64,000 nt of DNA from Aquila chrysaetos chrysaetos (taxonomy: Eukaryota > Chordata > Aves > Accipitriformes > Accipitridae): assembly GCF_900496995.4 (NCBI RefSeq), contig NC_044027.1, positions 15,834,743 through 15,898,742 of the forward strand, given 5' to 3'. Below are positions 39,589-59,098 of this stretch, piece by piece (position 1 is the stretch's first letter; every line of letters starts with the position of its first letter). Both the position numbers and the translations under genes were made by a program. The notes below the pieces were generated by a model. It searched no databases. It saw nothing but the letters and a program-made list of their open reading frames with translations, and was not told the origin of the DNA.

Positions 39589-43927
<4,339 letters not shown>

Positions 43928-49358: not shown

Positions 49359-49796
49359 GAGCGATAGAAACTTAATTCGGCAAAGCAACCTAATTCTGTA
49401 ACTGGCTTAGAAAGAAATCCTCTAAGCGTGCACAGCGAGACCCCTACATTAAAACCACTAAACTGCCAGATGAGCGGAGAAACAGGGCAAGCAGAAACAC
49501 CGAGAGGATAAACCAGCCATGTGCAGCATTTCCACCGGTGAATAATATTCCGGGGAGAGAGACAGAGCTGGGTATGGATGCTACGAACATCCCACTTGAC
49601 ACCCTCATTTTAAAGGTGTTGCTTCAATACAAGCATTTTTCAATCTGGTCCTTGGGCTGATTTTGACCTGTTGGCCCAAGGGTGATCTGTGTTCACTGTA
49701 CCAGACGGCAAGGCAGGCAGAGAGCAAAGAGTCCCCAGGAATGGGGAAATCTGAGGCTGGGGAGGAGCTGAGCATGCACTGGGCTTAGCTTTGGTC

Positions 49797-49910
49797 TGAT
49801 AAGTTTATCAAGCACTGCCGGCTGCTAACTGTCAGCCGGCAAAGCGGGCCTGTTAGGGAGGAGGAACAGCTCCCAGGGCAAGATAGGACAGCCCATGCCT
49901 TATCGGAGTG
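49797..49910. promoter_or_regulatory. Candidate haematopoietic enhancer (GATA palindrome, MYB site in a hairpin)
   Basis: TGATAAGTTTATCA (49,797-49,810) is a pair of inverted GATA sites. A 9-bp perfect inverted repeat (TGCCGGCTG...CAGCCGGCA, 49,816-49,841) follows, whose 8-nt loop CTAACTGT holds a MYB-type TAACTG. Then come a GGAA ETS core, AGATAG and CTTATC (GATA) further on. It is about 6 kb downstream of GFI1B, which in mammals has downstream GATA-bound enhancers. The function is inferred. Confidence 0.4.
49816..49841. repeat. Perfect inverted repeat, 9-bp arms and 8-nt loop
   Basis: Arms 49,816-49,824 and 49,833-49,841 are exact reverse complements around CTAACTGT. Confidence 0.9.
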
Positions 49911-51859
49911 CCTGAACCAAAGAGAGAACTGGAGAGTGAGCACTTTCCAACCACTTCATCCGAACAACAGACAGATTGGCAGGAAAGGCCTGTCAGCCCT
50001 TCGCTTCTGCCACCCAGGCATCAACAGGGAGCCCCCATCCATGCAAATAACCCTGGTAAGTACAGCATGAGAGTTGCAAATGTGAACATAGGGGCCTGAG
50101 GGAATGCACGGGGTAGGTTTTCTTAGGAAAATTGCCCAGGGGGGAGAGTCAGATTTACAGCAAACAATTCAGATGCTTACTGAGCAAGCTGCTCCTGTTC
50201 AGTGCCCAGAGCAGCAGCTCTTCCCCACACTGCCTTCCCTAGGTTTGGGAAGGGAATCTAGCACTTCAGAATAACACTAGTCACTAAGTTCTGGTGTACA
50301 GATAATTGCTTTGTTTTCCTTTACTGCTTCTGAAAAATAGTAAAAAAAACCCCAGCTGAACAGAAGAGGAAAAACCTGACCATTCCCATCTGATCTGCAA
50401 GAGTATGGGCCAGCAAATGCCCCTTCACACCTCTCCTAGGGCAGCAATAACTAAATCAATACCAATACACCTGCAGCAGAGAGACTCTGCTATATTTGGA
50501 GGAGCTCCCTTAGACCTGTGCAAGCTACCTGTCCGTATACCTCAGCCATGACAGGGAAGGTGATAAGAGATTCCCACATGCCACATTCTCTGCTTGGTTT
50601 CCCTGCTGAGGATGGGCTGTGCAGGATAGAACCGGCATCAGATCAGCAGCTTCAACACACTGCGTTCCTTCAGTCTTTCAGATCACACTGTTATCAGGCC
50701 ACTGCTCATTTAGACCATACGGACAGCTGTCATCCTGCATCCCACCCACCTTTGGGTCTTTGGCTGGGTCCAAGCTGGTGACTTGGGTCCTGCCTGTATC
50801 AGGGGATTTGACAGAAAGCTGGCCCCAGTGCAAGCCCTGACCCTGTGCTGGGAGGAGGCGTTCATACTTTGCTGCCTGGGTGCAAGTACTGTCTCAAGCC
50901 TTCCATGGGGTACGAGGCAGGAAACCTTCTGCAGCAGAGATGTGGGCCAGGATATCTCCAATGTGAGCTAGTCACTCAAAGGTTCCCTTTCTGGTAAGTA
51001 ACATATCTAGGAAGCAATTTAGCTCCTCCTAAAGCACATACCTAAAATAGGACAGAAGTCATGTCTTCAACGCACCTACTTCGCTCTCCTTGAAGAGAAA
51101 AGGAGCCTAGTATCTGTAGACATCTAAAGTTACATGAGATGAGTCACACCCCTGTGGTTTCTGCAACACTCTGGAGCCAAATTTCTCACAGCTGTTTCTG
51201 ATCCAACCCATAATCTACTGTTCTCCAGGCCACGCAGCCTCTGCTTAGAGCAGCCTCTAAGCCGTTTAATTCCTCTGTGCATCAAGGGCTCCTAAGCAAG
51301 TTCTAAGTATGACAGCCACATTCAGCGCTGGCCAACAAAACTCTGAGGTTCAAGGCTTCCTCATGAAGAATGAGGAGTTAAAAAACCCCATCCCATTGAT
51401 TCTGCTTTCCTCTTGAAGAATTATAAAGCAATGGAACTTTATCTTACATCCCAGGCCCTTCTATATTAGGAGCTTTGGTGGGATTTTTGGCAGTGGTCAA
51501 GTCCGCTGGTTTCTTCTCTTTATAAAATAGAAATTATCTCTTGCCTCAGTTGGGGAAGGGGAAGTCAGAGATGATGGAGTATTCCTGTTCTTGAAAGGGC
51601 CCCATCCTGAGAGTGTGGACATGGTGAACCAGTGTGTCAGTCAGACATCCCTGCCCCAGCTCCTTATTTAGATCTAGCCTGTAGTAGCTTGACTGTAAAT
51701 CAGTCAGGCTCAGTGGACACCCAGGTGTGATAGCACCTGGAAAAGAGAGGCCAGAAACTGCAGCTGCATTTTCTGGTATTATAGCATCACAGAGAATGCT
51801 AAATATGAGGCTCAAAACTCAAAGAAGGATTATTCCTGGCTTTGACATTGCCAGCTGAT

Positions 51860-54727: not shown

Positions 54728-55084
54728 AGCTGAAGGGGAGACCTTATCACCATGTTCCACTATTTAAAGGGTGGCTACAAAGAAGATGAAGATTCCCTTT
54801 TTACAAGGAGTCACATGGAAAAGGCGAGGGGTAATGGGTATAGGTTACTCCTGGGGAGATTCCGATGGGACACAAGAGGAAAATTTTTCACAATGAGAAC
54901 AATCAGCCATTGGAATAATCTCCCCAGGGAAGTGGTGGATTCCCCAACATTGGGTACTTTAAGATTCAGCTGGATGGGGTACTGGGCCATCTTGTCTAGA
55001 CCATGCTTTTGCCAAGAAAGGTTGGAGCAGATGATCTTTGAGGTCCCTTCCAACCTGGTATTCTATGGTTCTAGGATTCTATGA
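54728..55084 (+). mobile_element. CR1 LINE, 5'-truncated 3' end
   Basis: Begins AGCTGAAGGGGAGACCTTAT, continues through CATTGGAATAATCTCCCCAG and GAGGTCCCTTCCAACCTGG, and ends in diverged ATTCTATG-like repeats (ATTCTATGGTTCTAGG then ATTCTATGA). This is the usual CR1 3' terminus. The 110-codon open frame inside (54,752-55,084) is CR1-derived, not a host gene. Confidence 0.92.
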
Positions 55085-55343: not shown

Positions 55344-56147
55344 GAGAAATGCCACCAACCCTGACTCAGGGACTCCGTGGTGGTGGGGAAGCAGGGCTCA
55401 GCTGTGCTGGAGCTGTCCCGAATGTCCCGGCTGCTGCACGCAGGATATCCACGGGAAAGGGGGAGCTCAGGGATGGGGAGGAGGTTGGTTGCATGGTGTG
55501 GAGGTGGGATGGAGACCTTCACCTGTTTAAACTGCTGCCTTGTTGTGTTTCATCCCTCTTGATTTGGTACAACAGAGGCAGGCAAGCTTGAGAAACTGCC
55601 TGGCAGCAGAAACCTCAGCAAAAGTCTGCTTGAGGGTTTGATAGCTGAGGGGATCTGGTGAAGATGACTGCCTCCCCCAGCACGCTACACGCAGCGTGGG
55701 ATGCAGTGAGCCCGGCTTTCTGCCCACTTCCAGTGGGCTGGAGCCAAGGGGAGTGTGCAGGAATCGATGCCATATGTTCTTGTGACCGCACTCACCGGAC
55801 CTGTTCCCTCCTGGCACCCAGTTAGTTTTGCCAGAAGAACAATCTGTGAGATCTCCCACAAGAAACATCTTTCGTTTTCTCACCGTAGTCCTTCATCGGC
55901 ACTTCTTTTAAAAAAAAAATTATCTGAACTGCATTTCCATCTTGCTTTGTCCCTGTACCCTACTGAGCTGCTGTAACTACAGTAGAGCAAATGCAGAGGG
56001 TGAAGCCTTTTGTGCTGCCAATGCATTTCATACAGATTAGTAGCCAACTGCCTCAGGGTTTTCTGTCAGATAGTGCAGGGGACCTCTGTCATCAGGCAGC
56101 TGTATGTAGCTTTACAGGGGTTTTTAATTTAAATTTTCTTCCCTCAG

Positions 56148-56215
56148 TGGTGTCACAAGAGTCTGTTATGGTACCAGTATATGATTCCAAAATCCACATG
56201 GAAGTGGGACCAAAG
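56148..56215 (+). other. Candidate 68-nt exon upstream of the GTF3C5 remnant
   Basis: A strong acceptor (TTTTCTTCCCTCAG) and donor (AAAG|GTAAAG) enclose 68 nt. One frame is open (22 codons plus 2 nt, ending ...TWKWDQ) and its phase fits the next GTF3C5 exon, where human has TQH before REGYNN. The residues do not resemble GTF3C5, so this may be chance or a new upstream exon. Confidence 0.25.
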
Positions 56216-56361
56216 GTAAAGCAACCCATTGCTCACCCAGCTGAGTCCCTTCTCTTCCAAAATCTGGAGCACAAACTTCCATTTTTGCATGTTCCCATGA
56301 AGGCCTAAGTCCGTGTGTGCCACAGGCAGAAAGCAAACCCGATGCTTTCCCTTTTTCTTAG

Positions 56362-56557
56362 GGAGGGATACAACAATCCCCAGGTGTCTGGTGAGAACCT
56401 GATTGGCCTCAGCAGGGCCCGTCGCCCACACAATGCCATCTTTGTGAACTTTGATGATGAAGAAATCCCAACTAAACCCCTGGTTGCTGCTGTACAGACC
56501 TGGAAGAAAGTGTGCACCAATCCTGTGGATAAAAAGGTGGAGGAAGAGCTGAGAAAG
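56362..56557 (+). pseudogene. GTF3C5: GTF3C5 remnant exon with REGYNN block
   Basis: Encodes REGYNNPQVSGENLIGLSRA, then RRPHNAIFVNFDDEE and VDKKVEEELRK, about 85% like human by eye. The acceptor is TTTTTCTTAG and the donor is GTACGT. No lesion within the exon. Confidence 0.9.
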
Positions 56558-57224
56558 GTACGTGCCTTATTGCTGAGCTGGGCTGAGTACTATACTGTGG
56601 CATGCAGACCTCATAAAAAATTGTTGTCATTGTAACTACTGCTGGCTTCTCTGAAGGTTTTGTGATTGTGTTTCCTGTTTAACCTTGTTAATGGGTGAGA
56701 TATGGGCCTGTGTAATTAAGCCAGGAACCCAAATCCAGGCTTTTGGGTTCCACTCCAGTTTGATATCAGCTGTCCTTTGTGCCCTTAGCAAAACACACAT
56801 TTGTTTTTTCTGTTCTCTAATCTATCAAATGAGAAGGGCTGTACTGGCATATTCTGCCGGGGATACAGGAATATTTGGTGTCCTGAACAGCTGCAGCTCC
56901 CCTTGAAATGATGGATGGGGTAAAAATTTGTCAAGGCACGACAATGTCACGTCAGGAAAGTGAGTGAGCGGCACAGATCTGAAATGCCAGCCAGGGCTCT
57001 GGAATTGTGTTCCTTAGAGTTGCCCGTGTTCTGAAAATAAATTTTGCAGTTTGCCTTCTGCAGAGCTCTCCAGGCCTTTTGGAGAGTAGACAGGCTGCTG
57101 AACAGACATTGTTTTTCTCTGGGTAATGATGGGCAAATCCAAAGTCTGACTGATATAACAAGTCTCAGTAGACACCACTGAGACCACTGTGTTCATTTCC
57201 ATGGTTGTTTCTGTATTATTTTAG

Positions 57225-57329
57225 CTCTTTGAAGTCCGTCCTGTCTGGTCTCGGAATGCAGTAAAAGCCAATATCAGTGTCCACCCAGACAAGCTGAAAC
57301 TTCTGTTGCCGTATTTGGCCTATTACATG
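57225..57329 (+). pseudogene. GTF3C5: GTF3C5 remnant exon with RPVWSRNAVKANI block
   Basis: 35 whole codons, LFEVRPVWSRNAVKANISVH through LPYLAYYM. The donor is GTGAGT. Intact in itself and in phase with the previous exon. Confidence 0.9.
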
Positions 57330-57454
57330 GTGAGTCTGTTATATCTGCCCTGGTGCCTGTCTGAGGCTGCTAGGAGGCAGAGCAAGGGAGCATCAGCCGG
57401 GTGTTCCAGGTTCTCTGCATCTTGTGCAGGACGCTAGGTCTCAGACCTTGGGAC

Positions 57455-57560
57455 ACAGGGTTCCCCTGCTCCAATTTTACAGAGAACAAGTTGAGGGAAA
57501 GGACTTTCTGAGGTCACCTAAGAAGTCCATGACAGAGCTGGCATCCGGTCATTACCATCA
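57455..57560 (+). repeat. MIR-like SINE fragment in remnant intron
   Basis: CCAATTTTACAGAGAACAAG, TTGAGGGAAAGGAC, GAGGTCACC and GACAGAGCTGGCAT follow the MIR core order. Confidence 0.5.
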
Positions 57561-57757
57561 GATCACATCTCCCTTTTTCTGCGTTAAAGGGTTTTGTTGA
57601 TCAGATACCTCTCCTCTCCCCACCTTGCTGAAGTCAGCATATCCCAAAGACCAGACTGCCTTTCGCACACCAGTCCAGCACTTCTGTTACTGAGCTAGGG
57701 TTATTCTGCAGGGTGCTTGCCCTCAGTTCATTATTGGTTTTCTTTTTTCAACTCTAG

Positions 57758-57994
57758 CCCCTAATGATATGCCCGTGAAAGCAAAACAGAGTCTGCCCAT
57801 CACTGTCAAGAAGCAGGGCATGCTGTGCCAGCAGAAGGGCTTTCTTTGGTTAAACAAGTGGTAAAGATGGCAAAGAGCAGCTGGCATATGAGTCTGGAGA
57901 GGATGAGGATGATGAAGAGGAGGAGGAAGAGGACTTCAAGCCTTCTGATGGGAGTGAAAATGAAATGGAGACAGAAATTCTGGACTATGTGTGA
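57758..57994 (+). pseudogene. GTF3C5: GTF3C5 remnant last exon, internally deleted and frame-broken
   Basis: The first part reads APNDMPVKAKQSLPITVKK, then unrelated codons to a TAA at about 57,861. The acidic C-terminus (GKDGKEQLAYESGED to ILDYV, TGA at 57,992-57,994) is present in another frame. The length is far below the several exons this region represents in human. Confidence 0.85.
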
Positions 57995-58489
57995 ACTCAG
58001 TGACCAGTCTGACTGCTGTTGGACAGAATCTTCTCTGCTCTTGTTCCTTGAGAGCTGAGGGTTCAGCCACCATGCCCAGGATGTGGGAAAGCAGAACTTG
58101 TGCTAAGATGACAATAATCTCTGCACCGACTGCGGTGCCTGCTGATGGCTGTCATTCTGGATGTTTGGGAGCCACTGCCTACATTTTCATAATTTCTGGC
58201 TAATAAGCCCTCAAGCAAGCTCAACAAACTCCCAAGAGCGAGCCCAGAATCCAAGCCATACACCAGAGAAGAGGAGAAGTTGCATTCCCAAATCTCTCCA
58301 TGTGTGGGAAGTGCATTTTGGCCGGGTTGGTGGCCATGTGGACAATAGAAAAGGTGCCCGAGGAGGTGCTGGGGGAAGCACGCCGGTGCTACTGGAGTCC
58401 CTAAGGCAGGTGCTGCCCTTCTGCTTGTCTAAGGGCAATGAAAATACTGTGCCATGACTTCAGGATTGAGCCCCACTGGTGATCTTGGA

Positions 58490-58495
58490 AATAAA
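58490..58495 (+). terminator. AATAAA poly(A) signal of the GTF3C5 remnant
   Basis: Canonical hexamer about 500 nt after the ancestral stop codon, preceded by non-coding 3' UTR-like sequence. It suggests the 3' end unit survived the coding decay. Confidence 0.6.
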
Positions 58496-59098
58496 GCCTG
58501 CAGGAAAACACACTTTCTGGCAGTGAATAATTCCCTTCTGTGGGAGGTAGCGTACGTTGTCCTCACTAGCTGATGCACTTCTCAATTCTGTCTTGACTTC
58601 CCCAGTAGTTAGCAAGGACTGAAGGAAGCAGGCAGTGGGGCAAAGCTTCAGGTCCACAGAGGTTGGCCGCTCTGGCCATTAGTCTGCCATTGCTGGCTGG
58701 ATTGCTACCACCCTGTCACAGAAATGAAGGCTCTGCTGGCATTTTCTGAGCCTTGTGCATTCCCCAGTGTGTTACGAGTGCAAGGTTTCTCATTTGTGGC
58801 CGATAATATGCTCTAATGCCTGGTTTAATATGATTTCAGCCTCCTGGACTTGTGTGAGGCTTCTCAAGGCTTCAGCATTTTCTTATGTTCTCTGGAGTTT
58901 TGTTAGACTGAGATATTTCCTTAGGTTTGGCCTCCAGCCCACAAAAGAAGCATCTGCAGGGCTCTCACACAGTGACGCCAGTCTGCCTCCGTCATGGTTT
59001 GGCCTCAGCCTACTGAAGGACAAGTGTGTAGAGGCTCCCCTAGTTTACCTTAGAGCCAAAACCGGGTCATGGCATTGACACACAGCTGCACTCCTAGA
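58496..59098. other. Short spacer between GTF3C5 remnant and CEL
   Basis: No coding character seen. It contains a CAGCTG E-box at 59,083-59,088, close to the CEL TATA box. Confidence 0.5.

Follow-up and report, generated by a model that had tools for sequence, protein, structure and literature searches.

Has Aquila chrysaetos chrysaetos lost GTF3C5, an essential Pol III factor for tRNA transcription? The window, i.e. the whole stretch of 64,000 nucleotides that was analysed (C24:15834743-15898742), contains a GTF3C5 copy that the first-pass annotation described as broken at its syntenic position. A tblastn search of the window with human GTF3C5 (letter-identical to PDB 8clk_E) yields four convincing matches on the + strand with E-values of 2e-32 to 0.005 (Table 1), all further rows having E-values above 1. 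Residues 1-190, about 294-331 and 356-460 of the human protein have no match in the window. The copy is indeed broken, and both ends given for it in that first reading, 56362 and 57994, are exact.

The surviving part of this copy, hereafter the relic, differs from a functional GTF3C5 in several respects. Exons 4 and 5 are nearly perfect, as had been noticed before, and exon 5 still matches the Pfam domain Tau95 (E = 2.5e-7). The single residue change of exon 4 occurs in 0 of 115 GTF3C5 rows; this and the following residue counts refer to an alignment of 119 GTF3C5 rows (120 listed among 395 matches, minus P0109), with 113-119 rows having a letter per column. Exons 2, 3, 6 and 8-10 were not found in the window. 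The first-pass annotation had reported the exons for about 215 N-terminal residues as absent, one internal exon as missing and the last exon as truncated. The first of these statements is correct for exons 2 and 3, whereas the stretch concerned comprises 190 residues (exons 1-3) and exon 1 is decayed but present. The missing internal exon is exon 6, removed by a deletion of 0.9 kb. The supposed last exon is actually a composite, namely a relic of exon 7 and the start of intron 7, fused to exon 11 by a deletion of about 2.5 kb. With exon 7 damaged too, the relic has neither the complete exon set nor the open frame of a functional GTF3C5; it has kept introns and has an intact parent gene in the genome, as is typical of an unprocessed pseudogene.

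Table 1. Features of the locus. Coordinates are those of the window; joined coordinates continue them into the next 50 kb.
Feature	Coordinates	Strand	Remarks
Zinc-finger exons, GFI1/GFI1B type, upstream neighbour	43117-43927	+	PDB 2kmk, Gfi-1 zinc fingers
U1, matches N-terminal part of gull P0128	49741-50056	+	in-frame stop and frame change; donor GTAAGT
U2, matches N-terminal 27 residues of condor P0130	50905-50993	+	open; tblastn E 6e-13; donor GTAAGT
Decayed GTF3C5 exon 1 of the relic	55377-55517	+	24 mismatches in 73 sites over 55377-55449
Tract A: later half of intron 3, exon 4, first part of intron 4	55518-56605	+	19/1083 mismatches
Human GTF3C5 aa 191-265	56360-56584	+	tblastn; exon part ends at aa 256
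GTF3C5 exon 4 relic	56362-56557	+	splice sites intact; one residue change, D232V
Diverged intron-4 remnant	57147-57199	+	11 mismatches in 53 sites
GTF3C5 exon 5 relic	57225-57329	+	splice sites intact; zero residue changes vs intact copy
Human GTF3C5 aa 257-293	57225-57335	+	tblastn
Junction of the 0.9-kb deletion that took out exon 6	57414/57418	+	
Human GTF3C5 aa 332-355	57757-57813	+	tblastn
Exon 7 relic	57757-57817	+	first 5 coding bases and 15 internal bases gone; donor GT to GC
Human GTF3C5 aa 461-519	57827-57991	+	tblastn
Junction region of the deletion of about 2.5 kb that took out exons 8-10	57845-57864	+	
Exon 11 relic, up to stop codon	57866-57994	+	
Tract D: exon 11, 3' UTR, 3' flank	57866-58976	+	6/1111 mismatches
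CEL (bile salt-activated lipase)	joined 59152-65336	+	open; 11 exons, 562 aa, introns GT-AG; exons 1-9 inside window
Complete GTF3C5	joined 66076-73156 = C24:15900818-15907898		11 exons, 516 aa, all ten introns GT-AG
CEL exon 1 relic with little flank and intron 1	joined 74181-74335, 74338-74456		start codon and donor present

The gene itself is not lost. When exons 4 and 5 were searched against the bird's own assembly (1.23 Gb in 144 contigs), four matches with E-values of at most 0.001 were returned in two places (all 8 candidates scored), namely the relic and a second copy from C24:15903154. The next 50 kb were read jointly with the window, giving 114 kb that contain no N. The second copy is a complete GTF3C5, 98.6% identical to that of Strix aluco (P0038), and starts 2.1 kb beyond the end of the window and 8.1 kb beyond the relic on the same contig. 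A true loss, as the first-pass annotation had pointed out, would need an intact copy elsewhere, and the whole-assembly search supplied one. Its statement of a gene broken at its syntenic position holds for the position, next to a GFI1-type gene, but not for the gene, and the partial duplication that it listed as an option agrees with the existence of a second copy.

The neighbouring genes complete the picture. Upstream of the relic, two joined ORF pieces contain, at residues 4-85, a match to the Gfi-1 zinc fingers of PDB 2kmk (82 residues). The same pieces are matched by many further zinc-finger chains, five of which score better than 2kmk; the name GFI1B used here rests on the 2kmk match and, in good part, on synteny. 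Between the relic and the intact GTF3C5 lies the open reading frame of CEL, in which the GESAG serine motif is present. Beyond the intact GTF3C5 follows a relic of CEL exon 1, past which no further CEL exon was found. Still further downstream, pieces of a RasGEF domain are encoded on the opposite strand in 2 of the 10 open frames tested (E = 4e-14, and E = 0.0024, the latter below the curated cut-off), which fits RALGDS. For chicken, an excerpt of one paper (PMC7035288) names TSC1, GFI1B, GTF3C5, RGL4 and GBGT1 around CEL, without giving their order. The order of working genes in the eagle is GFI1B - CEL - GTF3C5 - RasGEF gene.

The arrangement is best explained, with a probability of roughly 0.85, by an old tandem duplication of the pair GTF3C5-CEL, followed by reciprocal loss and a later conversion of the relic. 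The neighbouring pair would have been duplicated in tandem long ago. The first copy would have kept a working CEL, while its GTF3C5 decayed: exon 1 was presumably eroded, exons 6 and 8-10 deleted, and exons 2-3 either lost or eroded beyond recognition. The second copy would have kept a working GTF3C5 and, of CEL, only exon 1 with little flank and intron. The order GFI1B - CEL - GTF3C5 would then result from a pair duplicated in tandem, each copy losing a different gene. This is the pattern found along the contig, where a relic GTF3C5 and an open CEL are followed by an intact GTF3C5 and the CEL exon-1 relic. Finally, a recent gene conversion, most likely from the intact copy, would have rewritten at least two tracts of the relic, and the relic exons would look almost unbroken because of it.

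Evidence for decay of the 5' part comes from exon 1, the remains of which stand directly before the first high-identity tract. Their alignment score is 191, whereas 300 dinucleotide-shuffled versions of the 2 kb around them reach 101 at most; the same query scores 157 in the best other 2-kb tile of the window, which is GC-rich and located at 28-31 kb (124 tile-strand tests). The protein match is weak (E = 0.08). For exons 2 and 3 no signal above shuffles was found, with 41 and 17 of the 300 shuffles, respectively, being equally good. The CpG observed/expected ratio around exon 1 is 0.24 in the relic vs 0.72 in the intact copy; the CpG island, and with it a CpG-island promoter at this exon, has been lost from the relic.

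The second line of evidence is the mosaic of identity between the relic and the intact copy. The core of tract A (55818-56575) contains 4 mismatches in 758 sites, tract B, the next one, 2 in 218, and tract D lies within a wider block with 16 in 1131; block C is intermediate (21 in 431), so that the tract borders are blurred. By contrast, homologous patches with 13-33% mismatch stand colinearly before, between and after the high-identity tracts, including the CEL 5' end (21/155) and CEL intron 1 (21/111). Pooled with narrower borders, which were chosen after viewing the alignment and leave out block C as well as the ends of A and D, the five diverged patches have 73 mismatches in altogether only 325 sites, vs 11 in 2084 sites for the three tracts. 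The recent decay that the first-pass annotation had listed among its options is not supported: the relic looks recent only within the three tracts. The clustering of mismatches in blocks A-D is pronounced (index of dispersion 3.9, a value reached in 0 of 2000 permutations). The longest identical run in the core, 437 sites, was matched by 9 of 2000 permutations and is the weaker test. Block C aside, the switch between near-identical and diverged sequence is abrupt, as expected for gene conversion. The high identity extends over introns and the 3' flank, and protein selection therefore cannot explain it.

A conversion, its direction and its age are read here from the mosaic of identity within one genome; this mosaic is more easily reconciled with recent conversion of an old pseudogene than with recent decay or an assembly collapse. 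The direction from the intact copy to the relic is suggested because the relic carries intact exons. We infer that no protein is needed from the relic. The diverged patches have a Kimura two-parameter distance (K2P) of 0.279, the putatively converted tracts one of 0.005. Substitution rates in birds are near 2e-9 per site per year, which would translate these distances, as orders of magnitude only, into about 70 and about 1 million years, respectively. Since tract D stops 175 bases short of the CEL start codon, conversion would have changed the sequence immediately upstream of CEL as well. A search for the duplication breakpoint between CEL and the intact GTF3C5 gave no convincing match, neither with the region upstream of the relic (best E = 0.38) nor with the sequence that follows the CEL relic (best E = 1e-4; 111 bases at 63% identity).

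A different role for the relic would be that its exons 4 and 5 serve as alternative 5' exons of CEL, with transcripts that start at U1 or U2 and splice exon 4, with or without exon 5, to CEL exon 2. The signal-peptide exon would thereby be replaced, and the lipase would stay inside the cell. Such a capture is possible on the basis of predicted gene models, and we consider it doubtful overall. The models were obtained with an artificial joint query of CEL and GTF3C5 (120 of 6253 matches listed, all of at least 593 aa) and with a second protein search (best 120 of 479 matches listed), which added the flamingo model P0249; the exon joins were read by eye. The black-headed gull model P0128 (isoform X1) places exons 4 and 5 between a novel N-terminal part and CEL from exon 2 onward, the California condor model P0130 (isoform X3) places exon 4 between its own novel part and CEL from exon 2 onward, and the flamingo model begins inside exon 4 and continues to CEL exon 2; in all three the join to CEL exon 2 is exact. 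Among the matches listed in the second search, no other bird row has a lipase name or domain. In the window, U1 corresponds to the N-terminal part of the gull model (tblastn, 88.6% over 88 aa, E = 7e-48, at 49741-50004). U2, exon 4, exon 5 and CEL exons 2-11 together form an open frame of 670 codons without the signal-peptide exon, and the frame from U2 through exon 4 into CEL is likewise open.

Several points speak against capture. The evidence from gull, condor and flamingo consists of predictions, and 4 of the 6 bird lipase models among the matches listed (at least 593 aa), those of Corvus, Agelaius, Pogoniulus and Geospiza, are without a GTF3C5 exon. U1 is not open in the window and could be 5' UTR at most; intron phases alone put the joins in frame. 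In the gull exons, R261P, D278A and K281E each occur in 0 of 114 GTF3C5 rows, while V250A is found in 38 of 115; the first three changes suggest that there is no selection for TFIIIC function. Moreover, read-through models from GTF3C5 to CEL exist in mammals (Macrotis P0109, Suricata P0240, Vombatus P0243), a lizard (P0137) and a fish (Labeo P0127). In these animals GTF3C5 is located upstream of CEL; splicing of this kind may therefore be noise, and a comparable chimeric model might in principle also come from a bird that has kept the ancestral order. The Macrotis, Suricata, Vombatus and Labeo models likewise splice GTF3C5 exons to CEL exon 2 or 3, but they start with a GTF3C5-like N-terminus, whereas the gull and condor models open with new exons further upstream and take from GTF3C5 only exon 4 (condor) or exons 4 and 5 (gull). 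An extended version is less probable still: since early neoavian evolution both exons would have been retained by CEL as alternative 5' exons, with promoters between GFI1B and CEL, giving a cytosolic or nuclear lipase in which a TFIIIC piece replaces the signal peptide, and would have been kept fresh by conversion from the intact gene. If birds do splice the relic exons to CEL, the locus would record the traceable birth of a chimeric isoform.

Independent of their use, the chimeric models bear on the age of the duplication. With caution, the arrangement may be placed in several bird orders, those of gull, condor and flamingo, and the CEL of the window is 85-90% identical to the three models, for which reasons the duplication is probably old. 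An alternative is a recent partial duplication, in which a GTF3C5 fragment arose as a copy upstream of CEL a few million years before present and has since lost some of its parts. The near-identity of the tracts across introns and 3' flank would be expected from such an event. The colinear patches of 13-33% mismatch around the tracts, the exon-1 relic among them, would not, and the chimeric models of the three birds point to an older event; we regard a recent origin as improbable. An assembly artefact, i.e. a haplotype duplication or the collapse considered in the first-pass annotation, is very improbable, as a false duplicate should be near-identical and colinear throughout, whereas these gap-free copies differ by two deletions, in their 5' flank and in CEL flanks that have diverged.

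An old tandem duplication with reciprocal loss and a probable conversion makes the case a good but ordinary instance of known processes. Human CELP is described in an excerpt of PMC5571153 as a duplicated pseudogene beside its parent CEL, and the opening lines of abstracts report that CEL and CELP recombined into a hybrid allele. As in CELP, the relic keeps introns, represents a partial gene and lies in the same locus as its parent; unlike CELP, it stems not from CEL but from the gene next to it, GTF3C5, and the two copies of the pair have lost different genes. Tandem duplication followed by random loss is known from mitochondrial gene order. The eagle locus resembles those cases in that adjacent genes were duplicated and complementary loss left an apparently new order with relics in between, and differs in being a nuclear bird locus with a putative later gene conversion. 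Interlocus conversion between a gene and its pseudogene is likewise a known process. The present locus shares with it the near-identical tracts that run across exon, intron and flank within an otherwise diverged pair; here conversion is read from identity within one genome rather than from a gene tree. Among the open-licence papers listed, no title or abstract opening referred to this bird arrangement.

With the intact gene in place, the alarm over the loss of an essential Pol III factor is removed. Its source is apparent: anyone reading the window alone encounters the relic, whereas the gene begins 2 kb outside it. The locus provides a well-preserved nuclear case of an apparent change in gene order via duplication and reciprocal loss. 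It also serves as a warning that conversion can make an old pseudogene look freshly broken, and identity to the parent hence does not date a pseudogene.

We add three minor observations. In the intact copy, the reading frame of exon 4 seems to extend without a stop back into the end of GTF3C5 intron 3 (the equivalent of window 55967-56361), the frame around the exon-4 match comprising 204 codons there vs 108 in the relic. A model of the golden plover (P0241) starts with sequence that, by eye, resembles this intron end, which is possibly an alternative first exon. Just upstream of the relic, window positions 54734-55084 resemble what we take to be the 3' part of a CR1-type retroposon. In the goose Anser cygnoides, a partial 'GTF3C5-like' model (P0244) covers about exons 2-5 and differs from goose GTF3C5 (P0083) in 2 of 196 residues at positions 94-289, and also by Y290S, maybe reflecting a parallel duplication or conversion.
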